Assembly: GCA_026874595.1 (NCBI GenBank)
Contig: CM049306.1
Coordinates: 11,677,019 to 11,741,018 of the forward strand
DNA: 64,000 nt
Origin: Sipunculus nudus
Lineage: Eukaryota; Annelida; Sipuncula; Golfingiida; Sipunculidae
Direction of reading: 5' to 3'
In this document: one piece after another, positions 1,626 through 63,519 of the stretch
How positions within the stretch are numbered: the first letter of the stretch is position 1
How the letters are laid out: every line of letters begins with the position of its first letter
Position numbers and translations under genes: made by a program
Notes under the pieces: model-generated
Seen by the model: the letters and a program-made list of their open reading frames with translations, nothing else
Database searches by the model: none
What the model was told of the DNA's origin: nothing

Positions 1626-3318
1626 TTTTTTAGCAAACCTGTGAGCATATGCAATGGTGTGGTGTGGGCCGTTGTCTGTCCTCTGTATGTTAACCCATCC
1701 TTTGTAAAAAGTGGCAGGACCCTGACCTAGCATCACCAAATTTTATGAAAAAAAATCATCTAAAAAATTGTCGGATTTTGCTTTTTTTGCTATATGCGTT
1801 AACTTAGATTTTATAGGGAAAAAGTTAAAAAAAATGTAAAAGCCTTCTTCTCCTGAATCATTCAGCCATATTGTTCAATATTTAACATAATTTATCCAAG
1901 AGATGAGCTCTCTCACTTTTGTTCAAATGGTTTGAAATGTTTTGAATGGCGATGAAGTTTGGCCGAGTTACAAGAATTTGAACTTTGTCATTTTGCCAAG
2001 TAAGCATACTGACATAACAATCTCAGAAATGACAGGAACTAGCATCACCAAGTTTTGTGCAAATGTTGGTTTTTGTGGTGCCACCACCAACATCTGCCTG
2101 TTTATCGGAAATAATCTCATAATTTTACCCCTTTCAGCTTCTACATGAAAAATTTTTCATGATGAAACCTTCAAGCAGTAGGGTTTAAGTTTTTACATTA
2201 GAATTATCCTAGAGTTCTATCAATTGTATAAGAACAGGTCAAGTTCATTGATTTTTGGTAGAATCATAAAAAACTGATGTTGGTCTTGTGGCCATGTAAG
2301 CCTATATCAAACTGAGGGCTGCAATAGTCTTCTTCTGAAAAACTGTTTCAAATTCTGTAAAATTGCACACAAATTATTCTTAGGTTCAAGTTTCCTTAAA
2401 TAACTTTTTATGGCCGAATTATTTGACGTTTAGCAATGAAAGAACTGTGAGATACTTAGGTAGCTTCTAGATTTATTGTAGTAACAGACTGTGGGTATAT
2501 AAGCAGAGCTGTACAGGCAACATAAATATTTGTGCCCATTTCCAAATAGTGTGTAAGATAATTTCATGAAAAAAAAAACATATTTCTGGATTCTGATTTT
2601 GCTTTTAATAGGCATCTGCTATTATTCTTAAAATTTTTGATAAAAAATCATAAGAATATGTCACCATGATAAAGGATTTACCCAGTCTTTCATTATGTGT
2701 GAACAGATTTGGCAACAGGCAAAGATTTGTCTGTATCTATAAAAAGCTTGGCAGACTGCCGACTGTATCAGATTAGGCAACAGGTCAAGAGTTCACTCAG
2801 TGCAGTACCTGCACCTGCATATTAGTTTTGGTTCACTGGAGGTGCAACTGCCTGCCTGAGCTGAGCTTGGTCATCCAAGAGTACCTGACTGGGAGGTTTC
2901 ATGTATCAGCCTGAAATTGTGCATGTCAATTCATCTCAAAATTGTTTTGTTGCATACAAGACTTATGGCACCATATACTATCCTTTTGGGTTTCATGCAT
3001 CTGCAGACATATAACATCAGTGGTTTGAAGTATCTGCCTGAAATTTTGCATGCCGATACAATTTCGTTGGCTTTCTCGAACACAAGACTGGTGGTGCCAC
3101 CCACAATCATTTTGTGTTGTGTGTGTCCGTGTCAGTTTTTCAGGAGTGACGTTTGTGTTATATTGATGCTTATATTTGGGTTAAAATGTTTAGTACTCGC
3201 TTTGTACATGAACGTGTCACATGTGTACTTGAAAAGTATAAGCAAGTACTTTTTAAATAAGGGTCAAGCATGTTATCTATCCCATTGCACAGCTTCGCAT
3301 TAGGCCTGTAGGCCTTGT
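1626..3318 (+). mobile_element. R5 element (Helitron-like ends), copy 1
   Basis: The left end is TTTTTTTAGCAAACCTGTG. The right end has CACAGCTTCGCATTAGGCC followed by a self-complementary AGGCCT, GT, AGGCCT hairpin and TTGTG. The 5' motif AGCAAACCTGTG is the inverted form of the CACAG(G/C)TTCGC motif just inside the 3' hairpin. The inside contains GGTGGTGCCACC-type palindromes, a block reading GCAACAGGTCAAGAGTTCAC, and sequence shared with the second copy at 41007-43358. No transposase or helicase is visible. Open frames inside it (for example 2917-3303) are not conserved with that copy and are not called as genes. Confidence 0.7.
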
Positions 3319-3850
3319 GTTAACTTATATTCGGGTGCACCTTAATACCAGGGGCTCCTGGTTGCAGCCCACTCAGTCATCCCCTTAATTCCCAACTACA
3401 GGGTAACTGTTTATCAGGAAAAGAATATAAAATATTCTACTATGGGATATCGCCAATGCAGTTTCTCTTGTAAATGGAGGAGAAAAGCTACAGGCTGGCA
3501 GAGCCAGAAGCTCATTTATGCAGGCAAGCATGATTTCGCTAGATAGTCATAATCACTGTCTTATCCGGCCATCCCCACAATATTAGCTTTAAACACTAAA
3601 ACCTCTGTTTACTTATGTGATCCTTGAACAAATATGAGGCTACAATTAATTGTTATATATTTAAATGAAACTTCAAAACATGACGTTTATCCATAAATGA
3701 AAGACTATGTAGCTTTGCCCTGGATTATTATGTGAGTCTGTTGATACAAGATAAAAGTTTTTATACCATTTGTCATTTCTAGGCTATTTCATGTTCATGC
3801 GTCAGATTTCCTTTCAACTCAACAACAGACTTTGAGGACAAGAACACATT

Positions 3851-5623
3851 AAGGTAGCATTCCTGACAAAAAACCCTAAATTTAAAATCAAACATAAAAA
3901 TGTTTCAAATGCATATATGACCCCATAAATTATATATAATTATGAGCTTGGCACAGAGATTTATCAAATAGCATATGTGTTTATGAAATTCCCATTCATT
4001 TTCATAAGAAATTTTAACATTTTAAAATTTATAAAATTTTTGAATGGTACACAAGTTTAAGCAACCAGTAAGAGCAAACCACTTTTTAATAGGCTAACAT
4101 CAAGCTACATGACCCAGTCTAAAAACATTTTTGTTTTGTTTTTTCTTTATCAGATTTTTTAAAAAACTTAAAATCTAATTTTTAGCGAACCTGTGAGCTT
4201 ATGCAATGGCGCAGCGTCGTCCCTACATTCATGTTTACTCTGCAGACATCCAAGCTCATATCTCGGGAACCTTTTGACCGATTGGGCCAAAATTTTGCTT
4301 GTGTATAGATCTCACATAGCTCTTCATCATAAGCAAAACCAGTGGTGCCACCTGCAACCTCTTATGCACAGCGTCACTCTGTTCATCTGCCTTGGGATAA
4401 AATCACTCATATCTCAGAAGTGGTTTGACTTATCCACCTAAAATTTTGCAGGTTTATACATCCTGGACAGGTTTCTCGATTTTATGAAAAATGGCGCCAC
4501 CTACATTCATGTTTACTCTGCAGACATCCAAGCTCTTATCTCGGGAACCTTTTGACCAATTGGGCCAAAATTTTGCTTGTGTATAGATCTCACATAGCTC
4601 TTCATCATAAGCAAAACCAGTGGTGCCACCTGCAACCTCTTATGCACAGCGTCACTCTGTTCATCTGCCTTGGGATAAAATCACTCATATCTCAGAAGAG
4701 GTTTGACTTATTCACCTGAAATTTTGCAGGTTTATACATCCTGGACAGCCTTCTCGATTTTATGACGGGTGGTGCCACCTACATTCACGTTTACTCTGCA
4801 GACATCCAAGCTCATATCTCGGGAACTGTTTGAACGATTGGGCCAAAATTTTGCTTGTGTATAGATCTCACATAGCTTTTCATCATAAGTAAAACTGGTG
4901 GCGCCACCTGCAACCACTTATGAACACCATCCATCTGTTCATCTGCCTTGGGATAAAATCTCTCATATCTCAGCAGTGGTTTGACTTATCCACCTGAAAA
5001 TTTGCAAGTTTATACATCCTGGACAATTTTCTCGATTTTATGACAGGTGGCACCACCTACATTCACGTTTACGCTGCAGACATCCATGCTAATATGCAAC
5101 ACACCTCACTCTATTCCCCTTGCTACTTAATCCATGCCTCACTTAACCCGTCCCACTCTGATTCCTGCGGATACACATAGTCACTTGTTGACTACCCATA
5201 TTCTAGTTTTAAAAAATGTCCTAGTCTGAAACTTGCAGGTCCGAAATGTCCATTTGGCTGAAATCATAATGACTAAGGTAGATATGCAGGACTTAAAATA
5301 ATCAATATTAAATTTTAAAAATAAACCTCCATTCATACTCCCAAACTTTGCACAGGTTCGCATCAGGCCTGTAGGCCTTGTTTAAAAGTTTGCTTGTTTA
5401 AAAGGTTTGCTCTTACTGGTTGCTTAAAATTGTGTTCCATTTAAAAATTTTCAAAATGTTAAAATTTCATATGAAAATAAATATAAATTTCATAAATACA
5501 TATCCAATTAGAAAGATATCTGTACCAGGTTTAAAATTATACATACTATATGGGGTCTAATATGCAAATGAAATGGCCTTTGATTGATTTGAACTTTAAG
5601 GGATTTTGCCAGCGATGCTACTT
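3851..5623. repeat. Long imperfect inverted repeat with ~230-bp arms
   Basis: The left arm (3851-4080) reads AAGGTAGCAT...AGAGCAAACC. The right arm (5404-5623) is its reverse complement with substitutions and small gaps, reading GGTTTGCTCT...GATGCTACTT. The match runs through several landmark blocks such as CCAGTAAGAGCAAACC and TTTATGAAATT. The 1.3-kb spacer is mostly one inserted repeat element (4179-5383), so the original structure had a loop of only about 120 bases. This fits a large fold-back (MITE-like) element, or two oppositely oriented copies of one repeat. Confidence 0.75.
4179..5383 (+). mobile_element. Chimeric element: R5 ends around an R1-type core
   Basis: The ends are R5: TTTTTAGCGAACCTGTG at the left, and GCACAGGTTCGCATC followed by the AGGCCTGTAGGCCTTGTT hairpin at the right. 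The middle is R1 core, with tandem units carrying 'CTCATATCTC', 'GGTTTGACTTATCCACCTG' and the GGTGG(C/T)GCCACC palindrome. An R1-type 3' terminus (TAGTCACTTGTTGACTA, then CTAG at about 5209-5212) lies inside it. It was either an R1 copy captured by R5 or an insertion of R1 into R5. Confidence 0.6.
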
Positions 5624-7773: not shown

Positions 7774-8674
7774 TTGTATCAGCCAAAACGAAGTTATGCG
7801 GATACTATGTTTTTTGACCGGGTTCCACTGCCGCCACCCCCGCGGCGTTCGTTTCCGGAGAACTCCTCTGAGACTACTGGACGGATTTTTCCAAAACTTA
7901 CACAAATTATTGGGTCACATGTGAACTGGTGCCTAACCAAGTGACCTTGACCTCTGACCTTTCTCTGCCCGGTGTCCGTTTGTGCGTGTTTCCATACATA
8001 AACCCACATATCTCGGGAACCGTTTGACCAATCAGGAAAAAAATTTTACACGAATGTAGCCCTGGGATAGCTTTATAACATACACAAAAAAAGGTGGCGC
8101 CACCTGCAGCCATGTTTGCACAGTGTCCATCTGTTCATCTGCCTTGGGTTAAAATCACTCATATCTCTGCAGTGGTTTGACTAATTCACCTAAAATTCGG
8201 CATGCGTATACATCCTAGATAGCTTTCTTGATTTTATGACAGGTGGCGCCACCTACCTACACGTTCATGCTGCAGACATCCAAGCTCATATCTCAGGACT
8301 CGTTTGACCAATCAGGAAAACTTTTTTTACTCAAATGTAGCCCTTGGATAGCTTTATAACATACACAAAAAAGGTGGCGCCACCTGCAGCCATTTTTGCA
8401 CAGCATCCATCTGTTTGTCTGCTGTGGGATAAAATCACTCATATCTCTGCAGTGGTTTGACTTTTCCACCTGAAATTTTGCATGTGTATACATCTTAGAT
8501 AGTTTCTTGTTCAAATAACAGGTGGCGCCACCTACAATCATGTTTATGTGGCAGAGATCCATTCTAATATGTAACACATGTAACTCTATTTCCCCTTGCC
8601 ACTCAATCCATGCCTCACTTCACCCGTCCTTCTCTGATTTTGGCGGATACACATAGTCGCTACCCGTATTCTAG
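7774..8674 (+). mobile_element. R1 Helitron-like element, copy 1 (intronic)
   Basis: It starts TTGTATCAGCCAAAACG after an A and ends TACCCGTATTCTAG before a T. The inside holds two tandem units, each with two GGTGGCGCCACC palindromes (starts 8093, 8242, 8373, 8521; spacing 149, 131, 148). Blocks such as CACTCATATCTCTGCAGTGG recur. The 3' subterminal motif TTTTGGCGGATACACATAG is the inverted form of the 5' end. The 3' hairpin arm is partly lost compared with the copy at 62336-63519. It lies in the stabilin-like intron. Confidence 0.75.
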
Positions 8675-9128
8675 TTATCATAATATAAACATGTTCCATC
8701 GACAAGACAATAAGCAGGCTCGACTGTACATGGAATTTCACCAGCCTTGCTTAAAATATATAAAAATATGCTTGATTTCTTTGAATGATGTATATGATCA
8801 ACACTAAATTAAGTCATTTTTCCAGACCATTAATAATATATTCAGGGAATTACCACAAGTTAGTAAGTTTACAAAGGACCTGGTCTTCATTTGCAAAATA
8901 AAAAAGATCTGGGAAAAGTAGAAGTAATTCCATAGAACAATAAATTTTTTTTGTGGCCTCAGAAATACAAGGCATGTAAATTTATATCAGAGGATCAGTG
9001 TCTCCTGAGTGTCTTGGCCCGTGGTTCACTTCTAAATATTGTCATTGTATTATTCATGTTAGTGCTCATACACAGGATTGAGACTTCCCTCCATTGAGGG
9101 ACCATATAAAGTGTTCAGTGTATCACAG

Positions 9129-10675: not shown

Positions 10676-12587
10676 TAGTGGTGGGAGTCGGTTCTTTTTT
10701 CATTATCGATCATCGGTCATGATTTTTGGCATACATATTGATCATGAGATGTTCCATCAGTTCCTGCAGACTGGTGGCGCCACCTGTAATTTTCGATTTT
10801 TACGAATTTTTTTCTCTATTTTTGAGACCTTTAAAAATGTGGACATCTATTAACAGGGCACAAATCGCAAAGACTGGACCTAGAATCTTCATTCTTGACA
10901 TTCTGAGAAACCTATAAAAAGTCTCCATGGAAACCTGAAATTAGGTCTCTGTTACCCATATCCTTTGAGCTATGGGGCCCCAAAGTACCCCCCAGAATAG
11001 TAAAAAATTTCATAAAAAAACTTCAATATCTGATTTAACTACATCACTGATAGTCATGATTTTTGGCATACATATTGATCACGAGATGTTTCATCAATTT
11101 CTGCAGATCGTTGGCGCCACCTGTATTTTTCAAAGTTTAACAGTTTTTTTTTCTATTTTTGAGACCTTTATGGATGTAGTTATCTGTCACCAGGGTTCAA
11201 ATTGGACCTAGAATCTTCATTTTTGACAGACAGGGAGATCTATGAAAAGTCTTCATGGAAACCTGAAATTAGGTCTCTGTTACCCATATCCTTTGAGCTA
11301 TTGCACTCTAAAGTACAGCTTAGAATAATGGAAAATTTGATACAAAAGCTGAAGTATCTGAACAAAATCAGTTTCTGCAGCCTGGTGGCACCACATATAT
11401 TTGTTGGGTTTTTTTTTCGAATTTTTTTTCTCTATTTTTGAGACCTTTAAAGATATGAACATCTGTTAACATGGCACAAATCATAACAACTGGACCTAGA
11501 ATCTTCATTCTTTACACACAGGGAGACCCATGAAAATCTCCATGGAAACCTGAAATTAGGTCTCTGTTACCCATATCCATTAAGCTGTATGGCTCCAAAA
11601 TACTCCCAAAGAAAATGAAAAATTTGATACAAAAACTCCAGTATCTCAATAACTACAACACTGATGCTCATGATTTTTGGCATACATATTGATCATGACA
11701 TGTTCCATCAGTTTTAGCAGACTGGGTGTGCCACCTCTATTTTTTTCAAATTTTTACCAATTATTTTCTCTTTTTTTGAGATCTTTAAAGATGTGGTTAT
11801 CTGTCAACAGGGTACAAATTGTAACAACTGGACCTAGAATCGTCATTCTTGTCATGCAAGGAGGCCCATGAAAAGTGTCTATGGAAACCTGAAATTAGGA
11901 CTCTGTTACCCATATCCTTCAAGCTATAGGACTCCAAAGTATCCCTCAGAATAATGGAAAATTTGATACAAAAACTGAAGTATCTGAACAACTAATCCAG
12001 AGACCACCATGCTTCTTTGCATGGATATTGACCATATAGTGTTTTTATTAGTTTTTCCATACTGGTGGAGCCACCTGTATTTTTTTTAGAGTTTACGCAT
12101 TTGTTCTCTATTTTTGAAATATAATAATACAGACACAATCTCAGCCTGTTGGTTAATCTCTTTGATGCTTCAGTTGAATGGTTATATACTACCATTCAGA
12201 TGATAAAATTTCCTTTTGCAAATCCCTTCCCAGTCGGCTGAGCGTCATGACCCATGGGTCACTTGTTTGCAATGTACATCTCATTACAAAACTCCCCGCT
12301 AATTCTGCAGCTCCCTGCCAGTTCAGAGGTTTATTAAGTCCTCCGTTTTTGCATCTACCGTGTTAAATTCAGTTCCATATGGAAGTTATTTTGTAATAAA
12401 GACTCAATTTTTAAAGCACAGAATGTTGTAAAAAATGGAAGAATAATTGAAGCCTATAACATAAAGGCATTCGTGAAAAAAAATCATGCTTATGATGTAA
12501 TCGATAGTTTCCATTGGTAATCAAGTGCTTGAAAGTGGCAGCAAACTGACTGACTTACGATTAAACTCGATGATCGGCCCACCACTA
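10676..12587. mobile_element. hAT-type non-autonomous element with 8-bp target duplication
   Basis: Perfect 10-bp terminal inverted repeats, TAGTGGTGGG at 10676 and CCCACCACTA ending at 12587, are flanked by identical 8-bp direct repeats TATACTGG (10668-10675 and 12588-12595). Just inside, ATCGATCATCGG and the complement of CGATGATCGG form a second inverted match. Eight-base duplications and short TIRs of this form are the hAT-superfamily hallmark. No transposase is present. Most of the interior (about 10722-12267) is an R4 array, so the element is a carrier with a later insertion. Confidence 0.85.
10722..12267 (+). mobile_element. R4 tandem-unit array inside the hAT element
   Basis: Five diverged units of about 270-340 bp. 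Each carries the block 'CTGAAATTAGGTCTCTGTTA', 'GGACCTAGAATCTTCATTC', 'CATGATTTTTGGCATACATA' and a GGTGGCGCCACC-like palindrome (exact at 10773, variant later). It ends with the class-2 3' terminus: CGGCTGAGCGTC, then hairpin TGACCCATGGGTCA, then CTTGTT. The 5' terminus is missing, so the array is truncated on the left. Open frames in it translate the repeat. Confidence 0.75.
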
Positions 12588-15671: not shown

Positions 15672-15831
15672 ACCCTCAGGGTATGCTAGTAGCTGCTACC
15701 AGTACAACAGTACATCTTCATTGTGGTATTAACTTAATATTTGATATGAGAACCCTCAGGGTATGCTAGTAGCTGCTACCAGTACAACAGTACATCTTCA
15801 TTGTGGTATTAACTTAATATTTGATATGAGA
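15672..15831. repeat. Exact 80-bp tandem duplication
   Basis: Two head-to-tail copies (15672-15751, 15752-15831) beginning ACCCTCAGGGTATGC and ending TTGATATGAGA, with no difference seen. The identity implies a very recent duplication or an assembly artefact. Confidence 0.95.
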
Positions 15832-16305
15832 ATTATGCGAGGTCGGGCATGGTCAAGGTACCCTCTTCATCTATTGCTCTAGCAAGAGTGTATACAGTTT
15901 TGGTCCATGAAAACTAAAGGTTTTCAGAACTAAAGGGGCCTTTAGCTATTACAGTAACACAGGATGATAAACCTAAATGGACCATGGACTAATATGAGAT
16001 GGAAAAACTCATGACAAGAAATGACATTTGTGTTTTTCAGCCTTCTGTGTTCTTTGTGGTGTTGTATAGCAAGGCCACTTGGTGTCTGCCATGGCCTGCC
16101 AACATCACTTTGCTAAAAAGCTATAAGAGGTATTTATATGGGTGATTTGTACATATGTAAAGTGACCTAATATGCTGTGAAATATACTTTTTTTACAGAT
16201 ATTGTGTGAATTGCCGTTTGAAAATTGTTTTTGTTACTGGGTATTGTTTAGGTTACATTCAAGTCAAAGAGGCATATCCCTTACTCAGGCTTATAAGATA
16301 AACAA

Positions 16306-18595
16306 AGAAGTGACCCATGGGTCATGACGTTCAGCTGCCAAGCATGACCTGCAACATCATGGGCTGAGATTCACTACTTCAAGCAAAATTTTTGAAGAAC
16401 ATATTTGCCAATTTTGTTGAAACTTTCTACGATGACAGAAATATATTTTACATATTTCTGGTTAAAACACAGTGACTTGATGGTCTGAGGCAAAATGTAT
16501 GGTTGTTTAGCTAACAGAATCCCATAGCTTGCTTGATAACTGCCAGTCTCAAAAGAAACATCACACAGGCCAAATATAAGATCAATATATATAGCAAAAA
16601 GGCAAGGAAATCCATGCAAGAATTATTGAGAAACGGGGCTTCTGTATGAATTTTTATCTAATACAAACCAACTGTACTAAACATTCATATATGATGATCA
16701 TACTTTTTAAGACATCTTTGACCCAATCCTTTACAAGATTTCATTAATATACTTCCCTATGCATTTTTATTAATAGTTCTTGAGATAATATGTTCAAAAG
16801 GAATTTTAAAGATGGCTACCTTGTGGCCATATTGGATTTCTGACAGGTCTGAAATCTGACGACACACATCCCCTAAAAGGGGCCAAAATTGTGGCAATTG
16901 TTCCAAAGAATGTTACAGTAATGAATGTCCAAAACTATTCAAAAGGCATGATCAGGTTGGAGAGCTCTCATACCAGATTTATGGACATGCAAATGTAAAA
17001 AGTGGATGTCCAATATTTTTTAATTATCACCTTGCTTTTTTAGTGGGGTCAGCAGGGTAGCTAAACTGCAAAAACCTGAAAGAAAAGAAATGCAGAAAGC
17101 ATCACTAAGAGTCTTGTAAAACTATCCTAAATCCAGGTACAGACCCACAAATTATCAGAACAAACACTTGCTGGTATATCATCTGATTTGCATAAAAATA
17201 TTTAGGTATCTAAGAAACAAAGTTTATTGCTATGATTCCATAAAATAAACTGCAAAATGTTCCCATAATCTTATAAATCAGTATCCTAAGCATTAAGTAA
17301 TACCTGGGCAACAGAGTGTTTTTGTTATGGACTAATGATGTTCTTATCATTCAGTGGGCTGATACAAAGGAGTCATATATCACAAGTGTCGCTCACAATA
17401 ATGGCCATACAGTAAGATGTACAAGTTTCAGTACAATGGTTAACACAAGAAAAATAGAGATGGTCTGCAAAGATTTTACTGTGAACATCCCGGACCTATG
17501 ACCTTGGCCTTGTGCCCACATATCAATCAGATTCTTTCTAGAGTGATTGGTAACTACTAACCTCTTCAACTATTATTAAGTCAAACTGGAGTAATCACTT
17601 GGCATCCAATGTGTGAATAACTTTGACCTTCAACTTTTAATCTCCTGACCAGCTGACCACACAATCAATAAGTTATTTCTTTAAGCAAAAAGACCAACAA
17701 ATTTGAAGTTTGAATCAAATTCAGTGATACATAGATTGAGCATATGTGAAAGACTGAAGGTTTGGGATGACCATTTTAGCTTGAAATATGTTCACAAGCA
17801 TTTGGAACAATTTAGTACTGTTACTTTGACCTCTGACCTTATGAACTCAACATCAAAAGGGTTCCTCCCCTATTGGTAGGTAAGCCATATATGACAGATG
17901 GAAGGTATAGGTTAACAAGTTTGCCTTAAAATGACTCCACCCAAGAAGTGGGTGCTGTGAACTTGACCTTTGACCTCACAATCAACAGGTCTTTTCCCCT
18001 GTTGGCAGAGAAGCGATATGTCAATGCTGGAAGGTTTGGAATGAAAAGTCTAGCTTGAAATGTGTCCACAACCTTTATAAAGAAATGGATCCTGTGATCT
18101 TGACCTTTGACCTTGTCACCTCAAAATCTATAGGATTCTTCTCCCACTTGGTAGGTAAGCCATATGTGAAAGATCAAAGGTTTAGAATGAAAGATTTGGC
18201 TTAAAATGCATTCACAAGCTTTTCAAAGAAGTGGGTCCTGTAACCTTGACATTTGACCGTGTGACCTCAAAATTATTATGGTCCTTTTTCTGTTTGTAGG
18301 TGAGCCATAAGTGAAAGATGGAAGGTTTGGGATGAAAATTTTGGTTGTATGAATTAATTTTTGGGGGTGCTAACACATCCCGTAATTCGGGGATAAAGGT
18401 CGCATTTACCTTCTTTAAGGTTTGCAAGGAGATCTTTTTAGAACCTCCAAAACTGCATAGAGTTCATGATCCTTGCCCTTATGGTTAGGATTTGAGCCCT
18501 GCTAACAGATGGCCAGCCGGGCGGACAGACAGAAGTACGATGGACAAAGACCCATCACTATAGCACAGCATGACTGAAAGTCAGCTGAACTAAAA
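16306..18595 (-). mobile_element. R3 Helitron-like element, copy 1 (2.3 kb)
   Basis: Read on the - strand it begins TTTTTTAGTTCAGCTGAC. It ends with the inverted form of that motif (GGCAGCTGAACGTC), the hairpin TGACCCATGGGTCA and CTTCTTTG. The interior (17500-18500) is a tandem of about 150-160-bp units with 'CTTGACCTTTGACCT', 'GTAGGTAAGCCATAT' and 'GAAAGATGGAAGGTTTGGG', and a GGACGGAC-type tract near 18515. The left third (16850-17560) is shared with the interrupted copy at 43959-48690. No helicase or replication-initiator ORF was seen. Confidence 0.75.
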
Positions 18596-18926
18596 AAGTG
18601 TATAGTTTGGTGCCATGGTTTAGTATTTTGATATCAGTGATGATGTTAGTCACTTAATCTTCCTAATCTTACAGGCTCTTCATAGCTTTTCTTAGCCTGA
18701 TAGTAAGCATACAACTAAAACAGACATGAAATATGCTTGAAAGTTTTTGTAGTTTATTTACATGCCATCGAGGACCAGAACCCATTCCCTCCTTGGGGAA
18801 GAGCTAACTACCTAACAAATAAATTCAAATTTGATTATTTTATCTTCTTGAAAGAAATGTCTGAATGGCTGAAGCTCAAAATTGGTAACTTTCTATTTAA
18901 AATATAAATAAATTTTTTTCTGATCA

Positions 18927-22273: not shown

Positions 22274-22303
22274 TGTGTACATTGATGTGAAATCAGTCCA
22301 AAA

Positions 22304-24673: not shown

Positions 24674-24928
24674 ACAGCTGAGCGCCGTGACCCATAGGTC
24701 CCTTGTTATTAGTTTCTGCAGACTTGTGGAGCCACCTGTATTTTTTTTAAAGTTTACGCATTTTTTCTCTATTTTTGAGATATATTATTACAGACACAAT
24801 CTCAGCTTGTTGGTTAATCTCTTTGATGCTTCAGTTAAATGGTTATATACTACCATTCAGATGATAAAATTTCCTTTTGAAAATCTCTTCCAAGTCAGCT
24901 GAGCGTCATGACCTATGGGTCACTTGTT
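24674..24928 (+). mobile_element. R4 fragment with two 3' ends
   Basis: A class-2 3' end (CAGCTGAGCGCCGTGACCC...CCCTTGTT) at 24676-24708 is followed by an R4 half-unit. A second 3' end, GTCAGCTGAGCGTCATGACC then TATGGGTCACTTGTT, closes it by 24928. It matches the right end of the R4 array at 12060-12267. Confidence 0.65.
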
Positions 24929-39010: not shown

Positions 39011-39011
39011 A

Positions 39012-43958: not shown

Positions 43959-44745
43959 AAAATCACTGAAACTGCACTGACAAAAGGATTTCTAAGGTGG
44001 CTAACTTGCAGACATAATGGATTTCTGACAAGTCTGACATTTGATATCACACATCCTCCAATAAGAGCCAAACTTGTAGCAAATTCTCCAAAGGATGTTA
44101 CAGTAATGAATGTCCAAAACAATTCAAAAGGCATTTTCAGGCCTTCATATTAGATTTATAGATATGCAAATGTAAAAAGTGTAAGTCCAATATTTTTTAT
44201 TATCACTCTACTTTTCAATGGGATCAGCAGGGTAGGTAAACTGCAAAACCTGAAAGAAAAGAAATGCAGAAAGCATGACTAAAGGTCTTTTAATAAAAAA
44301 AAGCCATCTTAAATCCAGGTACACATCCACATATTATTAGAACAAACATTTGGTTTATATCTGGTGATTTATATAAAAATATTCAGATATCTAGGACACT
44401 AAGTTTATTGCTATGATTCCATAAAATAAACTGCAAAATGTTCCCATCATCTTATAAATCAATAGCTAAACCTTAATACTACACTCTCACAGTCTTAATG
44501 CCTGGCTGAAGCATTCCGGCAAGTGTTTTTGTTATGCAATAACGAGGTATTTATCAATCAGCCTTATCACTTAACAGGCTGCTACAAAAGAGAGTCATAT
44601 GTCACCAGCATCACTCACAATTACAGCCACACAGTGAGATGTACCATAACCAATGGTTATATGTACAAGAAAAATAGAGATGGTCTACAAAATAAGTTTT
44701 TGTGAACATCCCTGACCTATGACCTAGTATATATATATTAGGTCA

Positions 44746-47322: not shown

Positions 47323-48690
47323 TTTTTTATGATACTTTCAGTTTCCTAGCACCCTAAAACATGGGTGTAGACACCAAAATCATGTCTCTAGCTGTCTTTG
47401 CAATGAAGTTATGGTCAAAAATATACATTCTGTGATTTTGACGGCGGCCATTTTGTAAAACAGTGTCAAAATACTAATTCCCAATGGTTGATTTTGGTTG
47501 AATTTTTTTGGGAGTTATAAAACATCATTATAGAGAGCCTGGCACCAAAACTTGGTTGTTATGGTAAATGTCCGGGTCCTTCGCAATTTCTACTGGCCTA
47601 TTGGCCTTTTGCCCACATATCAACTGGATTCTTTCTAAATTATGGGTAACTACTAACCACTTACATCTGCTCGGGTGTAATTACTTGGCAATCAATGAGT
47701 GAATAACTTAGACCTGCAACCTGTAACCTCCTGACCAGCTGACCTCAAAATCAATTAGTTATTTCTTCATGCAAAAAGACCCATAAATATGAAGTTTGAA
47801 TCACATTCAGTGATGCATAGATGTTGCATATGTGAAAGACTGAAGGTTTGGGTTGAACAGTTTCACTTGAAATATGTTCACAAGCATTTAGAACAATATT
47901 GTGACCTTGACCTTTGACCTTTTGAACTCAACATCAATAGGCTTCTTCCCCTGTTGGTAGGTAAGCCATATATGACAGATGGAAAGTATAGATTGAAAAG
48001 TTTGCCTGAAAATAACCTTCACCCAAGATGAGGGTGCTGTGAACTTGACCTTTGACCTCAAAATCAACAGGTCTTTTCCTGTGTTGGCAGAGAAGCAATA
48101 TCAGTGCTGAAAGTTTTGGAATGAAAGGTCTAGCTTAAAATGTGTCCACAACCTTTTCAAAGAAGTGGATCCTGTGACCCTGACCTTTGACCTTGTGACC
48201 TCAACATCTATAGGATTCTTCTATCACTTAGTAGGTGAGCTATATGTGAAAGATCAAAGAATTGGGATGAAAGGTTTGGCTTAAAATGCATCCACAGGCT
48301 TTTCAAAGAAGTTGGTTCTGTGACCTTGACCTTTCACCTTGTGACCTCAAAATAATTATGGTTCTTCCCCTGTTGGTAGGTGAGCTGTATGTGAAAGATG
48401 GAAGGTTTGGGATGAAAATTTTGGCTAAAAGAATATTTCTGGGGGGTGCAAACACACCCCATAACTTCGAGAATATAGGTGAAGTGACCTAATTTCAGGT
48501 TTGCAAGGAGATCTTTTTAGAACCTCTAAGACTGCATAGGGTTCATGGCCCTAGCCCCTATGGTTACGATTTGTGCCCTGCTAACGGCAGGACGGCCGGC
48601 CGGACAGCCAGCCGGACGGACAGACGGAAGGACGACGGACAAAGACCCATAGCTATAGCCCAGCATGACTGAAAATCAGCTGAGCTAAAA

Positions 48691-49184
48691 AAACTTAGGA
48701 CCTTATTTCTTAGGAAGCATTTGGTGGATTGTTATGAAATATGGTACATACCTCTCCAATTCATATTTATAACTGATTATCAGCTTTTGCTAATATTCTA
48801 GTTTTGCAATGCAATGCTTACAGATACTGGCCTAATGTTTGGTCTGTGGGCACTTAATGACCACTTACAGATCGAGTTTGCGTTTCGTCCCAGTTGACCT
48901 ACTTTTGACCATATGACAGATCCTGAACATAGAAAATTTCATGAAAGACAGAAATTTTTATGAAAAATGCACATATATGGACTTTTTTAACACAGTGCCT
49001 GCAGATACTGGCCTGATTATTGGTGTGTTGCTTGATAATGACCTGTTACAGATAGAGTTTGCATTTTGCCCTTGTTGACCTACTTTTGACCATACAACAC
49101 CTCATGAACTTAAACAATTTTTACGAAATTTGACAAATATTTGTTATTTGCTCCAGGCGAGGGCATTCGTGTCGTCCCAACACT
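48691..49184 (+). repeat. R6 copy 2 (partial)
   Basis: Two R6 units with 'ACTGGCCT.AT...TGGTGTGT', 'AATGACC..TTACAGAT' and 'TTGACCTACTTTTGACCAT'. The preceding ~100 bases (48691-48790) are not assigned. Confidence 0.55.
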
Positions 49185-50989: not shown

Positions 50990-51816
50990 GTTTTTAGTGC
51001 CATTGTCTGTCATCGTCGTCCTCATCTTGTGAAGGAGGGCTGCATATTTTCTGCCAAAATTTGAAACACTCAATTGTTCATACCAAAATCTCAGAGGAGT
51101 TTGAAACCAGTGACCTTGGTCTTCATCTTCAAGGTCAATTCTGCCAAATTTTTTAACCCCATAAATTTTTAAGTATTTTTTTAAGTACTTTTTTTTCATA
51201 AGTATTAAACATTTTGTCCTCAAATTTGGAAAAATCAAGGAAAAGTTAAAAAAAAGTGACCTTGACTTTCATCTTCAAGGTCAAAGCTGCAGAAATATGA
51301 CATTTTTGTGAACCCCATAACTTTTGAAGTATTCCACATTTTGTCCTCAAGTTGGTACACCAATTGTTCCTACCATATTCTCGGATAAGTTCAAAACCTT
51401 GTGACCTTGACCTTACTCTTTAAAATAAAATTGCCAAAAGTAACATTTTATGAATCTCATAACTTTTGTAGTATTTCCAATTTTGTCCTCAAATTTGGTA
51501 CATCAATTGCTACTACCAAGCTCTCAGACGAGTTTGAAACATGGTGACCTTGACCAGGATCTTCAAGGTCAAATCAGTGGAACTATAGTCATATCACTAT
51601 GACCCATTTTCTACAAGCTGTGTGAAAGAACTTGATTTTAACACTAAATTAGCCAGGAGAACATAAATGGTAGCAGCTGCATGAAGAATAAGGTCATTGT
51701 AACCTATATCTAAGGGCTATTGGCAAAATTCATGATCTTGACTCTGAGAGTCTTTTTGCCCATTGTTCAAGGCTCCTTGAATTCAACTGAGCGTCATGGT
51801 CCATTGGCCACTTGTT
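50990..51816 (+). mobile_element. R7 element (class-2 ends)
   Basis: It starts TTTTTAGTGCCATTG with GTCTGTCATCGTCGTCCTC and ends AACTGAGCGTCATGG, TCCATTGGCCACTTGTT. About four units carry 'AAATTTGG', 'CTCAGA.GAGTTTGAAAC', 'GTGACCTTGAC' and 'ATCTTCAAGGTCAA'. There is no GGTGGCGCCACC palindrome. Confidence 0.55.
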
Positions 51817-52631
51817 TTAAAGATGGCTTCTGTGGACGTGACCTTGTGACCCCACAATTGATATAGAACATCCAGTACTATTGGCAGGTTAGCTATATCT
51901 TCAAGATGGAAGATCTGGCATGAAAAGTTTGGCTTAAACTGCATCCACAGTATCTTTAAAGATGTGATTCCTGTGACCTTGACCTTTGACCTCTTGACCC
52001 TAGAACCTAAAGGGTTCTTATTTTAGTTGTGGGCCATACATAAGTCACATTTGATATCAATATGGCTATCAACACTAGAGATATCATAAAAGGTGTGTGA
52101 TTTTCACCAAATATGGAAATATTCAAGGTCAAGGCCACTCTCATGGTTAAGGTCACAACCCAAATTTAAATAGACCTCATCCCATGACCCATCCCTCTAC
52201 AGGTTCATAATATAAAAGAAATCTGTCCGCTCACAGTACTGTCAAGTGGCAATTATAGGAGTATTTAAAGGCATGAAAACAAGAAAAGGATAATAAGGGG
52301 CACCACCAGTTTCTGGCACATCATAAGGCTATCCAAGATCTTCGGTCACTTTGATTTTTAGACCAATAAATGCTAGCTTTCTTGAGATTATTAAGAATTT
52401 GTGTAATTTTCAGCAAAAATGGACCTATTCAAGGTCAATGTCACTATCCTTACAAAGGTCATGACTCCATTTTAAATAGGCCTAGTCCTCTTACCTATAT
52501 CTATACACATGTAAAGTTTGATAAAGATCCATGAAATATTTATTTAGTTATTATGCTCACAAGTTTTTCTGCAGAGGTGGTGGTGGGACCGTCATGAAAC
52601 CATAGTATCCTGACTTTGTCTGGGGAAACAA
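51817..52631 (-). mobile_element. R2/R3 element, 3'-truncated
   Basis: On the - strand it starts TTGTTTCCCCAGACAAAG then GGATACTATGG. It has one R2 unit (GGGGCACCACC variant near 52300) and one to two R3-like units (TGACCTTGACCTTTGACCT at about 51977). The hairpin-CTAG terminus is missing; it abuts the R7 3' end. Confidence 0.6.
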
Positions 52632-52639
52632 TAAATTAG

Positions 52640-54782
52640 CTAGGATTGTCACCATTTAAAAGGAGGACTTCTTATTCTAGACAGGACTCAATGTAAAGTT
52701 AAGGTCCATATTGTCACACTTGATATTATATTTGTTTTGTTTCAACTGTGGGAAGCACACACTTAAGAATACAGGCAAGGTCTTAAATTTATATTCAGTG
52801 AACACAGAATAAAAAAGTAAAAGCTGACATAGCCCAAGGTTCAAGAAACAATGATGTCCAAGTAGCATATATTAAACCTGTCTGTTGTTCAAAGAAGAAT
52901 TATTGCAAATTTGTGGACGAAAATGATGGTTTGGCTCCATCTTTCACTTAACAGCATAAATTAGTTTCAGTTGATAGTAAAGAACTTGTTCTAAAGCATG
53001 TTTCTTTTATGTGTTCTGTATCTGCAACTATTATAATTTTTGCATCAACAATGATTTTAATATTTAATTTGTAATGTCAGGAACAAGGCTGGCCTGTCAT
53101 CTATGTAAAAGATGTTCCAACCGAGGTATTATAATTATTATTGATGTACATTATAGTGCCACTTCATAGTGTTACACTGCTCAGATGCACATAAAAGAAC
53201 ATATTATAAAAAATATGGTAAAGAAAACCTATGTAAAATTACTTCACAGTAGTACCCATAATATAATTCAAGCTCAAAGTTTATATAAGAACATGGTAGC
53301 AGATGGAGACTTAGACCTTCAATTGATGAATGGATGGATATAAAAAGTAAAGTGTGATGGTGCAGCACCGATTCTCTGATCCTCCCTCCATGACTACTGT
53401 AATCTCTTGTGGTTATAAATTGGTCCAGTGTGTTCGTCAGATTAAGTGTGATAGCTATGACTGAGGTGATTTACAGTCAGCTGAGCTCAAAAGAAAGATT
53501 CAAAAATGTTGTTTCTTGTCACTGATAAAATATCATTTAGAATAAAACAACTCTGGAACAATGTTATGTACCCAGTTATAATGATATTATTCACAAGTCC
53601 AATAAGAAAATTCTTTGTCCTGAAACTTTAAGATAGGAAGATCAAAGATACATTGATCAATATAAAAATTGTTCAGATGGAAAAGTATTGTATAAAAATG
53701 GCTGGACTCATGACATAATATTTTATTGCAAAGTTATTTTTAGTGTCTGTGGTATTTTATGGCTTTGAGAAGTCCCAATTGGGCAATTGAGGGAGAATTC
53801 TAGATCTCTGATATGAAAAGATCTAGTGTCTTTGTGCATTGATTTTGTAAAGGGAGAAGGGAGTCATTTAGGAATTGTCCACAAATTTATATGATAGTAA
53901 AGCTTGCCTTTGTTCTCTTAAGATTACCATCAACTTAATGTTGATCTTGTATACATTTATAGAAGACAACAAAATCTTGTGAATGTTTATGAGGAACATG
54001 GATACTGATAAGATCCAGTACGTGATTTTTGTAATTTGGCTTCAGCTGTTGTCCATTTATGATACTTTATGTCACTTGTAGACAATAAATATTTATACTA
54101 CCGCTGCAAATGTAATTGCCTAAGCTGATAAGCTTGAGTCACTGTTTGTATACTTTGCCAGACAACCTTGAATGCCATCATTTGGGTGTTTGCAGCCTGC
54201 ATGCTTCATTTTGCCAGGGGTTGATAGTTTAGTCTGGCAGTCACACAGTTTTTCTCTTAAATCAGGGATGTTATTGTGTGTGATAAATAGCAATAGATAA
54301 CCAGGGCACCTATTTCTACTTTTAAGCACCAGAAATAGTCTTTCCTTAAATCAAGCTTTCTTGTGAAAAGTACAAGTGTTTAATACAGGTTTGAGCATGT
54401 AAATATTGTCTCCTGCTCATTAATGACCTTTAGAGCAAAAATACAATTATAATCCAGATAAAGGGAGCTGTATGTCTTGCCTACCATGATTTGATGATAT
54501 CACAGCAACTTTAGAGTAAATATGGAAAGAGATGTAAATCAGGAAAAAGTGACAGAAATGGATGAAAATGACCAATAAACCATTCCAATCCTGCTTTATG
54601 ACCACATGCAGTTCAAACACTATTATTTCAGAACAAAAATTTAAACATATTATGTAACAAAGGTGGATTTATTAATTTTGCTGACTGAACCAGGGATATA
54701 TTACTTGGCTTTTTTGTATATTTTACTTTGAAATGAAACTCTGAAATTAGTAACTGTCTTTTTAAAGGTTATTTCATATACC
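52640..54782. other. Single-copy stretch; one exon-like block
   Basis: Apart from the candidate at 53081-53125, nothing could be assigned. No repeat boundary was found. Confidence 0.4.
53081..53125 (+). other. Candidate 45-nt exon, weak
   Basis: It is flanked by TTTAATTTGTAATGTCAG and a GTATTATAA donor. Phase 1-1 gives TRLACHLCKRCSNR, EGF-like, and would join in phase to the exon ending at 9408. Phase 0-0 gives EQGWPVIYVKDVPTE, also open. A 44-kb intron containing the GPCR gene would be implied. No homology is sure in either frame. Confidence 0.25.
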
Positions 54783-57700
54783 TTGTTTACAAGAAATATC
54801 AATTCCTTTCTGTCAGAGTACTTTGGTTACCAGAATTATCTAATCCTTCCTGTCAGAGTACTTTGGTTACCAGAATTATCAAATCCTTCCTGTCAGAGTA
54901 CTTTGGTTACCAGAATTATCTAATCCTTCCTGTCAGAGTACTTTGGTTACCAGAATTATCTAATCCTTTTTTTGGTGACTAGAATTATCAAATCCTTCCT
55001 GTGAGTGTACTTTGGATAACAGAAAAAAAAAACAAATCCATCTCATCACAGTACTTAGTCTACAAGAAATATCAAATCCTTTCTGTCAGAGTACTTTGGT
55101 TACCAGAAATATCAAATCCTTCCTGTCACAGTACTTTGATTACCAGAATTATCAAATCCTTCCTGTCAGAGTACTTTGGTTACCAGAAATAACGAATCCT
55201 TCCTGTCAGAGTACTTTGGTTACCAGAAATAACAAATCCTTCCTCCAGACTTCTTTGGTTATCAGAAATATAAAATCCTTCCTGTCAGAGTACTTTGGTT
55301 ATCAGAAATATCAAATCCTTCCTGTCAGACTACTTTGGTTACCAGAAATAACAAATCCTTCCTGTCAGAGTACTTTGGTTACCAGAAATAACGAATCCTT
55401 CCTCCAGACTTCTTTGGTTATCAGAAATATCAAATCCTTCCTGTCAGACTACTTTGGTTACCAGAAATAACAAATCCTTCCTGTCAGAGTACTTTGGTTA
55501 CCAGAAATAACGAATCCTTCCTCCAGACTTCTTTGGTTATCAGAAATATCAAATCCTTCCTGTCAGACTACTTTGGTTACCAGAAATAACAAATCCTTCC
55601 TGTCAGAGTACTTTGGTTACCAGAAATAACAAATCCTTCCTGTCAGAGTACTTTGGTTACCAGAAATAACAAATCCTTCCTGTCAGAGTACTTTGGTTAC
55701 CAGAAATAACAAATCCTTCCTGTCAGAGTACTTTGGTTACCAGAAATATCAAATCCTTCCTGTCAGACTACTTTGGTTACCAGAAATAACAAATCCTTCC
55801 TGTCAGAGTACTTTGGTTACCAGAAATATCAAATCCTTCCTGTCAGAGTACTTTGGTTACCAGAAATAACAAATCCTTCCTGTCAGAGTACTTTGGTTAC
55901 CAGAAATAACAAATCCTTCCTGTCAGAGTACTTTGGTTACCAGAAATATCAAATCCTTCCTGTCAGAGTACTTTGGTTACCAGAAATATCAAATCCTTCC
56001 TGTCAGAGTACTTTGGTTACCAGAAATAACAAATCCTTCCTGTCAGAGTACTTTGGTTACCAGAAATAACAAATCCTTCCTGTCAGAGTACTTTGGTTAC
56101 CAGAAATAACAAATCCTTCCTGTCAGAGTACTTTGGTTACCAGAAATAACAAATCCTTCCTGTCAGAGTACTTTGGTTACCAGAAATATCAAATCCTTCC
56201 TGTCAGAGTACTTTGGTTACCAGAAATAACAAATCCTTCCTGTCAGAGTACTTTGATTACCAGAAATAACAAATCCTTCCTGTCAGAGTACTTTGGTTAC
56301 CAGAAATAACAAATCCTTCCTGTCAGAGTACTTTGGTTACCAGAAATAACAAAACCTTCCTGTCAGAGTACTTTGGTTACCAGAAATATCAAATCCTTCC
56401 TGTCAGAGTACTTTGGTTACCAGAAATAACAAATCCTTCCTGTCACAGTACTTTGGTTACCAGAAATAACAAATCCTTCCTGTCAGACTACTTTGGTTAC
56501 CAGAAATAACAAATCCTTCCTGTCAGACTACTTTGGTTATCAGAAATATCAAATCCTTCCTGTCAGAGTACTTTGGTTATCAGAAATATCAAATCCTTCC
56601 TGTCAGACTACTTTGGTTATCAGAAATATCAAATCCTTCCTGTCAGAGTACTTTGGTTACCAGAGTTATCAAATCCTTCCTGTCACAGTACTTTGGTTAC
56701 CAGAAATAACAAATCCTTCCTCCAGACTTCTTTGGTTATCAGAAATATCAAATCCTTCCTGTCAGACTACTTTGGTTACCAGAATTATCAAATCCTTCCT
56801 GTCACAGTACTTTGGTTACCAGAAATAACAAATCCTTCCTCCAGACTACTTTGGTTATCAGAAATATCAAATCCTTCCTGTCAGAGTACTTTGGTTACCA
56901 GAAATAACAAATCCTTCCTGTCAGAGTACTTTGATTACCAGAAATAACAAATCCTTCCTGTCAGAGTACTTTGGTTACCAGAAATAACAAATCCTTCCTG
57001 TCAGAGTACTTTGGTTACCAGAAATAACAAATCCTTCCTGTCAGAGTACTTTGGTTACAAGAAATATCAAATCCTTCCTGTCAGAGTACTTTGGTTACCA
57101 GAAATAACAAATCCTTCCTGTCACAGTACTTTGGTTACCAGAAATAACAAATCCTTCCTGTCAGACTACTTTGGTTACCAGAAATAACAAATCCTTCCTG
57201 TCAGACTACTTTGGTTATCAGAAATATCAAATCCTTCCTCCAGACTTCTTTGGTTATCAGAAATATCAAATCCTTCCTGTCAGAGTACTTTGGTTACCAG
57301 AGTTATCAAATCCTTCCTGTCACAGTACTTTGGTTACCAGAAATAACAAATCCTTCCTCAAGACTTCTTTGGTTATCAGAAATATCAAATCCTTCCTGTC
57401 AGACTACTTTGGTTACCAGAATTATCAAATCCTTCCTGTCACAGTACTTTGGTTACCAGAAATAACAAATCCTTCCTCCAGACTACTTTGGTTATCAGAA
57501 ATATCAAATCCTTCCTGTCAGAGTACTTTGGTTACCAGAAATAACAAATCCTTCCTGTCAGAGTACTTTGATTACCAGAAATAACAAATCCTTCCTGTCA
57601 GAGTACTTTGGTTACCAGAAATAACAAATCCTTCCTGTCAGAGTACTTTGGTTACCAGAAATAACAAATCCTTCCTGTCAGAGTACTTTGGTTACAAGAA

Positions 57701-58996
57701 ATATCAAATCCTTCCTGTCAGAGTACTTTGGTTACCAGAAATAACAAATCCTTCCTGTCACAGTACTTTGGTTACCAGAAATAACAAATCCTTCCTGTCA
57801 GACTACTTTGGTTACCAGAAATAACAAATCCTTCCTGTCAGACTACTTTGGTTATCAGAAATATCAAATCCTTCCTCCAGACTTCTTTGGTTATCAGAAA
57901 TATCAAATCCTTCCTGTCAGAGTACTTTGGTTACCAGAGTTATCAAATCCTTCCTGTCACAGTACTTTGGTTACCAGAAATAACAAATCCTTCCTCTAGA
58001 CTTCTTTGGTTATCAGAAATATCAAATCCTTCCTGTCAGACTACTTTGGTTACCAGAATTATCAAATCCTTCCTGTCACAGTACTTTAGTTACCAGAAAT
58101 AACAAATCCTTCCTCCAGACTACTTTGGTTATCAGAAATATCAAATCCTTCCTCCAGACTTCTTTGGTTATCAGAAATATCAAATCCTTCCTGTCAGAGT
58201 ACTTTGGTTACCAGAGTTATCAAATCCTTCCTGTCACAGTACTTTGATTACCAGAAATATCAAATCCTTCCTGTCAGAGTACTTTGGTTACCAGAGTTAT
58301 CAAATCCTTCCTGTCACAGTACTTTGATTACCAGAAATAACAAATCCTTCCTCCAGACTTCTTTGGTTATCAGAAATATCAAATCCTTCCTGTCAGAGTA
58401 CTTTGGTTACCAGAAATAACAAATCCTTCCTGTCAGACTACTTTGGTTACCAGAAATAACAAATCCTTCCTGTCAGACTACTTTGGTTATCAGAAATATC
58501 AAATCCTTCCTCCAGACTTCTTTGGTTATCAGAAATATCAAATCCTTCCTGTCAGAGTACTTTGGTTACCAGAGTTATCAAATCCTTCCTGTCACAGTAC
58601 TTTGGTTACCAGAAATAACAAATCCTTCCTCCAGACTTCTTTGGTTACCAGAAATATCAAATCCTTCCTGTCAGACTACTTTGGTTACCAGAAATATCAA
58701 ATCCTTCCTGTCAGAGTACTTTGGTTACCAGAGTTATCAAATCCTTCCTGTCACAGTACTTTGATTACCAGAATTATCAAATCCTTCCTGTCACAGTACT
58801 TTGATTACCAGAAATATCAAATCCTTTCTGTCAGAGTACTTTGATTACCAGAAATATCAAATCCTTCCTGTCAGAGTACTTTGATTACCAGAATTATCAA
58901 ATCCTTCCTGTCACAGTACTTTGATTACCAGAATTATCAAATCCTTCCTGTCAGAGTACTTTGGTTACCAGAAATATTAAAGTCTTCCTGTCAGAT
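54783..58996 (+). repeat. 40-bp minisatellite, ~105 units, with higher-order structure
   Basis: The consensus unit is GTACTTTGGTTACCAGAAAT followed by AACAAATCCTTCCTGTCAGA. Variants are AT(A/C)-type (AAATATC, AATTATC), GATTACC for GGTTACC, GGTTATC, and a 39-base form (CCTCCAGACTTCTTTGG). Outer units are more diverged. From about 56534 the variants recur in the same order with a 637-base period (frames at 57171, 57808 and 58443 start alike), about 16 units per period. Most units contain the interrupted palindrome TGGT, T, ACCA. Confidence 0.97.
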
Positions 58997-62175: not shown

Positions 62176-62278
62176 CTAGAATACGGGTAGTCGACAAGCG
62201 AATACGTGTATCCGCCGAATCAGAGTAGGACAGGTGAAGTGAGGTATGGATCGAGGAAACGAAGTTTTGCGGATACAA
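62176..62278 (-). mobile_element. R1 mini-element, 103 bp, both ends kept
   Basis: On the - strand it runs from TTGTATCCGCAAAACTTCG directly to the 3' region (CTCACTTCACCTG, GGCGGATACACG, CGCTTGTCGACTACCCG, TATTCTAG). It is flanked by A and T as in longer copies. It lies 57 bases from, and opposite to, the full copy at 62336. Confidence 0.75.
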
Positions 62279-62335
62279 TTACCAATAAGCTACATTAATA
62301 TTTAGTTAATTATTTAACTTTTAAAAAGGATATCA

Positions 62336-63519
62336 TTGTATCCGCCAAAACGACGTTTTGGGGATACTATGTTTTGGACCGGGTTCCGCTGCCGCTGCCA
62401 CCACGTTTGTTTCCGGAGAACTCCTCTGAGACTACCGGACAAATTTTTCTGAAACTTACACAAATTATCAGGTCACAAGTGAACTGGTGCCTAACCAAGT
62501 GACTTTACCTCTGACCTTTCCTCTATGCCCAGCGTCCGTTTGTGCGTCTGTTTCCACACATAAACCCACATATCTCAGGAACCGTTTGACCGATCAGAAA
62601 AATTTTTTTTACACAAATGTAGCCGTGGGATAGCTTTATAACATACACAAAAAAGGTGGCGCCACCTGCAACCATTTTTGCAGTGTCCATCTGTTTGTTT
62701 GCCTTAGGTCAAAAACACTCATATCTCTGCAGTGGTTTGACTAATTCACCTAAAATTCGGCATGCGTATACATCCTAGATAGCTTTCTTGATTTTTTGAC
62801 AGGTGGCGCCACATACCTTCACGTTCACACTGCAGACATCCAAGCTCATATCTCAGGAACCATTTGACCAATCAGGAAAAAAAATTTACACAAATGTAGC
62901 CCTTGGATAGCTTTATAACATACACAAAAATGGTGGCGCCACCTGCAGCTATTTTTGCACTGCGTCCATCTGTTTTTCTGCCTTGGGTTAAAATCACTCA
63001 TATCTCTGCAGTGGTTTGACTTTTCCATCTGAAATTTTGCATGCGTATACATCTTGGATAGTTTCTTGTTCAATTAACAGGTGGCGCCACCTACATTCAT
63101 GTTCACGCTGCAGACATTAATGCTTATATCTCCGGACTCTTTTGACCAATCAGAAAAAATAATTTACAAAAATGTAGCCCTTGGATATCTTTATAACATA
63201 CACAAAAATGGTAGCGCCACCTGCAGCAATTTTTGCACAGCATCCATCTGTTTGTCTGTTGGGGGATAAAATCACTCATATCTCTGCAGTGGTTTGACTT
63301 TTCCACATGAAATTTAGCATGTGTATACATCTTGAATAGTTTCTCATTCAATTAACCGGTGGCGCCACCTACAATCATGTTTATGTGGCAGAGATCAATT
63401 CATATATGTAACACATGTAACTCTGTTTCCCCTTGCCACTCAATCCATGCCTCACTTCACCCGTCCTTCTCTGATTTTGGTGGATACATGTAGTCGCTTG
63501 TCGACTACCCGTATTCTAG
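62336..63519 (+). mobile_element. R1 Helitron-like element, copy 3, best preserved
   Basis: Preceded by A and followed by T. The 5' end TTGTATCCGCCAAAACGACG continues to TTTTGGGGATAC, forming a stem. The 3' end has TTTTGGTGGATACATG (inverted 5' motif), the hairpin GTAGTCG, CTTGT, CGACTAC, then CCGTATTCTAG. Palindromes start at 62655, 62802, 62932, 63080, 63210 and 63358 (spacing 147, 130, 148, 130, 148), giving a 278-bp unit. Short open frames on the - strand (62846-63073, 63124-63351) are similar to each other because they translate the unit. Confidence 0.82.

Follow-up and report, generated by a model that had tools for sequence, protein, structure and literature searches.

A 64,000-nt window of the Sipunculus nudus genome (GenBank assembly GCA_026874595.1, contig CM049306.1, positions 11,677,019 to 11,741,018 of the forward strand) contains repeats that are very probably non-autonomous rolling-circle transposons belonging to the Helitron superfamily, on its Helitron2/Helentron side. 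Their four end families, designated R1, R2, R3 and R5, appear to represent two lineages: R3/R5 fit HINEs, the non-autonomous derivatives of Helentrons, whereas R1/R2 fit a type intermediate between Helitrons and Helentrons. A first-pass annotation of the window had given all of them a single "Helentron-like" label; the data support this label in part, and it needs splitting. Directly observed are the end layout, inverted ends that are specific to each family, two empty sites without visible duplication, the A and T flanking R1/R2, and nested and composite copies.

End motifs were located by motif scans of the window, and the tests below rely on the copies found there, together with published descriptions. 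The motifs named in the first-pass annotation were all present and further ends were added by the scans, for a catalogue of seven 5' and eight 3' ends for R1/R2 and nine 5' and eleven 3' ends for R3/R5 (Table 1). In each of the four families, the 5' motif recurs in inverted orientation some 21-31 nt before the 3' end and is followed by a palindrome and a short tail. R1/R2 ends run TTGTATCC...CTAG (R2 being here the family with the 336-bp core and CTAG ends, which may differ from the R2 of the annotation), and R3/R5 ends TTTTTAGC...CTTGTT. The 5' start of R1/R2 is TTGTATC in six of seven ends and TTGTTTC in the remaining one, with GATACTATG lying 3' of the hairpin in six of the seven; CTAG closes all eight 3' ends, but it was part of the search pattern. 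For R3/R5, TTTTTAGC opens seven of nine 5' ends and CTTGT is found in ten of eleven 3' ends. Two TATTCTAG sites, at 48794 (T next) and 52673 (A next), were rejected as R1/R2 3' ends because the GGATAC motif is absent upstream; reverse-strand 5' matches at 20259 and 11935 (T before each) were discarded as R3 core sequence. Matrices trained on seven 5' and seven 3' ends of R3 scored their own sites at 48-55 and 44-57, respectively (high by construction), whereas 20 resampled windows peaked at 14.1 and 16.8. Three R3 3' sites outside the training set exceeded the resampled maximum: 63606 (34.7), 9000 (28.3) and 33352 (27.9), the last two being weaker R3-like sites (9000-9034, plus strand; 33352-33386, minus strand) seen in the matrix scan only.

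The inverted copy of the 5' motif was evaluated in twelve paired elements, each against 300 shuffles, and was significant (p ≤ 0.01) in ten, among them all four R3 pairs and R5b, which thereby show the subterminal inverted repeats (subTIRs) of Helentrons and HINEs. Five of the six R1/R2 pairs likewise carry the copy, in the form of asymmetric terminal inverted repeats (ATIRs). Its distance to the 3' end is 24 nt in all four R3 pairs, 21 and 22 nt in R5, and 31 nt in four of the six R1/R2 pairs (R1b, the miniature R1, R2a and R2b); R1a, with its 8-nt deletion, has 23 nt, and R1c gives no measurable distance. Inverted-match scores between 5' and 3' ends reached 8.9 (R1), 12.3 (R2), 9.0 (R3) and 8.5 (R5) within families, as against 4.2-6.2 between them; random window pairs averaged 5.3 (95%, 7.5; maximum, 9.0), and a control in which the families were compared without reverse complementing gave 4.3-6.9. 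Since the 5' ends of each family match their own 3' ends and not those of the others, the two ends have changed together in each family. The proposal of the first-pass annotation that families of different sequence have one end layout is thus confirmed by the motif scans, the shuffles and the family-specific inverted match.

Folding of the 5' ends, done without shuffle control, yielded hairpins of -7.8 to -10.6 kcal/mol in five R3 ends and of -3.6 to -10.1 kcal/mol in three R1 ends; the R2 5' hairpin was read from the sequence only. The 3' stem draws its support from a palindrome that recurs in the same position across 3' ends. Helitron2 elements are defined by ATIRs and two hairpins (PMC3627910). 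This layout of 5' and 3' ATIRs, 5' hairpin and 3' hairpin was found here, with ATIRs in ten of the twelve elements and 5' hairpins in R3 and R1. The resemblance extends to the location of the 5' ATIR within the 5' hairpin and of the 3' ATIR directly before the hairpin, with about 20-30 bp left to the 3' end. In contrast, the target of Helitron-1N1_CRe lies between TTTT and T/C, whereas R1/R2 end in CTAG and insert between A and T (PMC3627910).

Two elements have a usable empty site. The joined flanks of the R3 insert 20366-24707 are 92% identical over 245 nt to an uninterrupted stretch at 11923-12166; the target reads GTG-TTTTT-ATTAG, a T-run, no target duplication is visible, and on the right the match runs on through the 3' end belonging to the host element. 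The remaining 11 spanning matches of this join hit tandem units of the same core and do not count as independent. The joined flanks of R1c (31419-32852) match positions 30976-31189 (76% over 218 nt) without gap at the joint, TTA-TTTTCC, which places the insertion between A and T, again with no visible duplication. The target belongs to a repeat of ~320 bp present in three copies at 30962-33235, one of them split by R1c. The base preceding the R1/R2 5' end is A in seven of seven cases and the base following CTAG is T in eight of eight. One of the 3' searches had required this T; rerun without the requirement, it gave T in seven of seven, and the eighth end, that of R1c, came from the list of TATTCTAG sites. 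No empty site was found for R5 among the elements tested: in the joined-flank search, the flanks of R5b matched only as an inverted repeat. Fold-back arms at 3854-4098 and 5388-5621 (77% over 245 nt) flank R5b, as though the loop of an inverted-repeat element had been its landing site. Two other joins were set aside, R3_427 (a trivial self-match) and R3_43534_48691 (71.5% over 130 nt; the joined ends do not belong together).

The lack of visible duplication at the two empty sites fits rolling-circle elements rather than cut-and-paste elements. Short non-coding sequences with inverted repeats near both ends are also what one would expect of miniature inverted-repeat transposable elements moved by a DDE transposase, and some DINE-1-like elements were formerly classed as such (PMC4067079). 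Neither the symmetric terminal inverted repeats nor the fixed target duplication of such elements was seen, however: the outer ends are asymmetric, the inverted copy being set back 21-31 nt from the 3' end, and duplication at the two empty sites is confined to the TT ambiguity considered below. Hence this origin is hardly credible, and the combination against which the first-pass annotation had set its own reading, classical symmetric repeats with target duplications, is not what the copies tested show.

The ends might alternatively be the mere edges of satellite arrays, spread by recombination and devoid of any transposition of their own. All families have tandem cores, cores have moved between ends in R5b, and random joins within arrays can mimic empty sites. 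In a control with randomly joined flanks, the joint was spanned in 24 of 500 and 105 of 2000 cases and was gap-free in 13 of the 2000; 11 of these 13 fell within one listed tandem array and 2 outside. The R1c target repeat was not among the arrays listed for this control, and its three copies bring R1c under the same caveat, though the ends of R1c were fixed from other copies. Indeed, both joins coincide with ends defined independently in this manner, the 103-bp miniature R1 consists of ends alone, the compact R3 element is only 429 bp long, and family-specific inverted ends demand joint change of the two ends of one element. Array edges are, accordingly, a very unlikely explanation.

Several observations weigh against the rolling-circle interpretation. 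Two elements fail the inverted-copy shuffle test, R1c (p 0.057), which has lost the 3' copy, and R5a (p 0.41, two mismatches); for R5a, the shuffle and flank tests took 3320 as the 3' end, and 3319 agrees better with the remaining R5 ends. The one R5 5' end that was folded gave no comparable hairpin, and the 3' stem taken alone is significant (p < 0.02) in only two of twelve elements, R1b and R2a, and not in the other ten. Usable empty sites were likewise obtained for only two of twelve elements, the other ten giving none, and both sites sit in repeats, which may mimic empty sites. At the T-run, a TT duplication may go unseen because the tail itself ends in TT; where the R1c target occurs for a third time (33064-33235), the joint is poly-C and insertion between A and T is not visible. 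The subTIRs of mite HINEs are described at 38-60 bp from the 3' end (PMC4067079), as compared to 21-24 in R3/R5. Finally, RepHel is absent among the scanned open reading frames (ORFs) of at least 62 amino acids in the window.

Comparison of 5' ends across families separates R1/R2 from R3/R5. At the 5' end, likeness is 6.9 between R1 and R2 and 7.5 between R3 and R5, as against 3.3-3.9 across the pairs; at the 3' end, the values within pairs (6.0 and 6.0) do not rise above the top of the range across them (4.4-6.1). The families had been called unrelated, which is too strong for their 5' ends. Asymmetric inverted ends with a 3' palindrome are the published design of Helitron2, Helentron and HINE elements (PMC3627910, PMC4067079, PMC7492417). 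Canonical Helitrons (Helitron1) have a 3' hairpin about 11 bp before CTRR and insert between A and T. Helentrons are characterized by a TT target and subTIRs, as opposed to the TC, CTRR and A-T insertion of canonical Helitrons (PMC4067079). The subTIRs, palindrome and T-rich target of R3/R5 match these published definitions, so R3/R5 fit HINEs in the features tested, including the CTTGTT tail and the target, which is T-rich at their one empty site. R1/R2 do not show a T-rich or TT target; they insert between A and T at the empty site, and all seven preceding and eight following bases agree with this. With canonical Helitrons they have the CTAG end and the A-T insertion in common (the stem being significant in R1b and R2a only), but not the 5' TC, replaced by TTGTATC or TTGTTTC in all seven ends, nor the absence of ATIRs (found in five of six pairs) and of a 5' hairpin (found in three R1 ends). 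R1/R2 thus combine ends of Helitron2 style with a tail and target of Helitron style, as fits a Helitron/Helentron intermediate. Of the Helentron-like design originally put forward, the asymmetric inverted ends, the 3' palindrome, the tandem cores and the lack of visible duplication at two empty sites stand; the single lineage does not, given the A-T insertion and CTAG end of R1/R2.

Treating all four families as one Helentron/HINE lineage, with the CTAG and A-T insertion of R1/R2 incidental, would accommodate the common layout, the tandem cores throughout and the core palindrome GGTGGCGCCACC that occurs across families. We regard it as quite unlikely in view of the invariant A and T next to R1/R2 ends, the gap-free A-T empty site and 5' ends that are alike inside R1-R2 and R3-R5 but not across.

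Known elements offer counterparts for both of the proposed lineages. The end type of R1/R2 (5' TT, 3' CTAG, insertion between A and T, no duplication) is that of proto-Helentron-Pi from Phytophthora infestans (PMC4067079); that element is coding and ~14 kb long, whereas R1/R2 are non-coding and have subTIRs, a feature not given in the section on proto-Helentron-Pi. Elements of Crassostrea gigas termed possible intermediates (PMC7992393) resemble R1/R2 in CTAG, hairpin, preference for A-T insertion (86%), subTIRs (257 of 751) and, in some, a 5' inverted repeat; they differ in starting with TC in place of TTGTATC. Eleven HINEs with such a layout and satellite cores have been described in the same oyster (Cg_HINE; PMC7492417). 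Their similarities to the elements of the window include a subTIR of ~11-12 bp, an adjacent complementary 5' inverted repeat, a GTCC-type microsatellite (in several of them), a satellite-like core, a palindrome after the 3' subTIR, a T-rich target without duplication, and the existence of several families unrelated in sequence with a layout common to all. The likeness concerns layout, and the A-T insertion and CTAG of R1/R2 set these apart. Satellite-carrying non-autonomous elements with such ends were already known from oyster; those described here are well supported and do not represent a new kind. The window presents this published pattern and adds insertion evidence, at the level of single bases, for two end types that occur next to each other. 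A group combining A-T insertion, CTAG and subTIRs bears on the origin of Helentrons from Helitrons, for which a proto-Helentron from an oomycete and possible intermediates recognised by structure in oyster have been described.

By analogy with known families, from which the chemistry and the role of each end are taken, a RepHel protein encoded at another genomic location and acting in trans would nick the 5' end of the element; one strand would then be peeled off, displacement would halt at the 3' palindrome and tail, and the freed strand would be joined into a new site without target duplication. ATIR pairing has been proposed to open the 5' hairpin and set the replication end point (PMC3627910), a model with which family-specific ends agree, short of proving it. 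The autonomous partner would be expected to encode RepHel plus an endonuclease for a Helentron, and a Helentron-clade RepHel lacking the endonuclease for the proto-Helentron type. Circles with joined ends have been reported for one FoHeli subgroup (PMC5148889).

With no more than two mismatches allowed, 48 occurrences of the palindrome GGTGGCGCCACC were counted in the window, whereas 30 resampled windows averaged 0.3. Most sites lie in core units of R1, R2, R3 and R5, a few elsewhere (e.g., 14045). Their flanks are weakly alike between core sets (0.53 for the left 60 nt of R1A and R2, 0.25-0.68 for other pairs; shift control mean 0.28, maximum 0.44), which makes a shared ancestral core unit the simpler reading; to judge from these sequences, the cores likely share descent across families. 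Although GGTGGCGCCACC is conserved above average in each of the four core sets, 5-37% of 12-column windows do equally well or better, and the evidence for a special constraint on it is weak.

One copy combines parts of both lineages. In this composite, R5b, a tandem core of R1 type and a 3' end of R1 are enclosed by R5 ends; its core-unit identity is 92%, against 86% in R1b and 79% in R1c. An insertion with later deletion, or else strand switching, would account for the structure. Its only joint between R5 sequence and core falls at the border of GGTGGCGCCACC. Conceivably, though we consider it doubtful, two lineages with different target rules swap satellite cores, GGTGGCGCCACC serving as a site of fork stalling and strand switching that would amplify units and move cores between end sets, as in R5b. 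Such exchange, if general, would help account for the spread of satellites through genomes.

Nesting can be followed in the R3 copies that begin at 18997 and 19714, which are arranged head to tail and have a single matching 3' end, at 24928. The 5' ends at 18997-20365 resemble the 3'-truncated tandem copies described for Helitrons (PMC8268682). Insert 20366-24707 entered the second copy, and R2a lies inside that insert on the opposite strand. The 5' end at 20366 is followed by a GTCC run of 13.5 copies, like those known from several oyster HINEs. The insert carries two R3-type 3' ends, at 22275 and 24707, and may reflect read-through past the first, with possible capture.

Table 1. Elements, isolated ends and empty sites in the 64,000-nt window
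Feature	Position	Strand	Remarks
R1a	7774-8674	+	TTGTATC...CTAG, tandem core; 8-nt deletion damages 3' hairpin
R1c	31419-32852	+	lies in a dispersed repeat, between A and T; has lost 3' inverted copy
Empty site (paralogous) of R1c	30976-31189	+	
R1b	62336-63519	+	best-preserved R1
Miniature R1	62176-62278	-	103 bp, ends alone
R2b	45726-47322	+	336-bp tandem core, CTAG end
R2a	22304-24040	-	nested within R3 insert 20366-24707
R2-type 5' end	52601-52631	-	
R2-type 3' end	38982-39021	-	
Compact R3 element	43534-43962	-	429 bp
R3 insert	20366-24707	+	lies in a T-run within a second R3 element; contains R2a
Empty site (paralogous) of insert 20366-24707	11923-12166	+	
R3 5' end and core	18997-19713	+	own 3' end absent; probable 3'-truncated tandem copy
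R3 host element of insert 20366-24707	19714-24928	+	
R3 5' and 3' ends	16305-18596	-	presumed pair
R3 5' end	48647-48691	-	
R3 5' end, diverged	53448-53492	-	
R3 3' end	12233-12267	+	
R3 3' end within insert 20366-24707	22241-22275	+	
R3 3' end, diverged	51782-51816	+	
R3 3' end, diverged	63606-63640	-	
R5a	1627-3319	+	5' end 1627, 3' end 3319
R5b, composite	4179-5382	+	R5 ends around R1-type core 4222-5095 and R1 3' end, CTAG at 5206
R5c 3' end	43327-43358	+	no R5-like 5' end recognised when looked for

Coding capacity was assessed on 168 stop-to-stop ORFs of at least 62 amino acids, ORFs wholly within the 40-bp array having been excluded beforehand. We scanned 136 of these against Pfam at E ≤ 0.01, having manually set aside 32 (one receptor ORF, and 31 others within or at tandem arrays), and obtained one weak match, to C2orf69 (E 0.003). 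A separate scan of ten ORFs at E ≤ 0.1 returned 7tm_1 in the receptor ORF plus weak matches to unrelated families. None of the families listed for the scanned ORFs was a Rep, helicase or transposase, and the absence of a RepHel gene from the window, already noted in the first-pass annotation, is borne out for the 136. An Rfam scan at gathering thresholds gave no matches. Four patterns searched against a viral sequence collection and two against a prokaryote collection also gave none, which says little about these elements given the nature of the collections. An exact-string literature search for these sequences returned no transposon paper by title, supplements being outside its reach.

Three features stand apart from the elements in Table 1. 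The receptor ORF (36287-37399, minus strand; 371 amino acids) encodes a rhodopsin-family receptor whose best match among solved structures is neuromedin-U receptor 2 (E 1.5e-17). The 40-bp tandem array extends over 54779-58995 in ~106 copies and is unlike the short cores elsewhere in the window. Two perfect 80-bp tandem copies at 15672-15832 reflect either a recent duplication or an effect of assembly.

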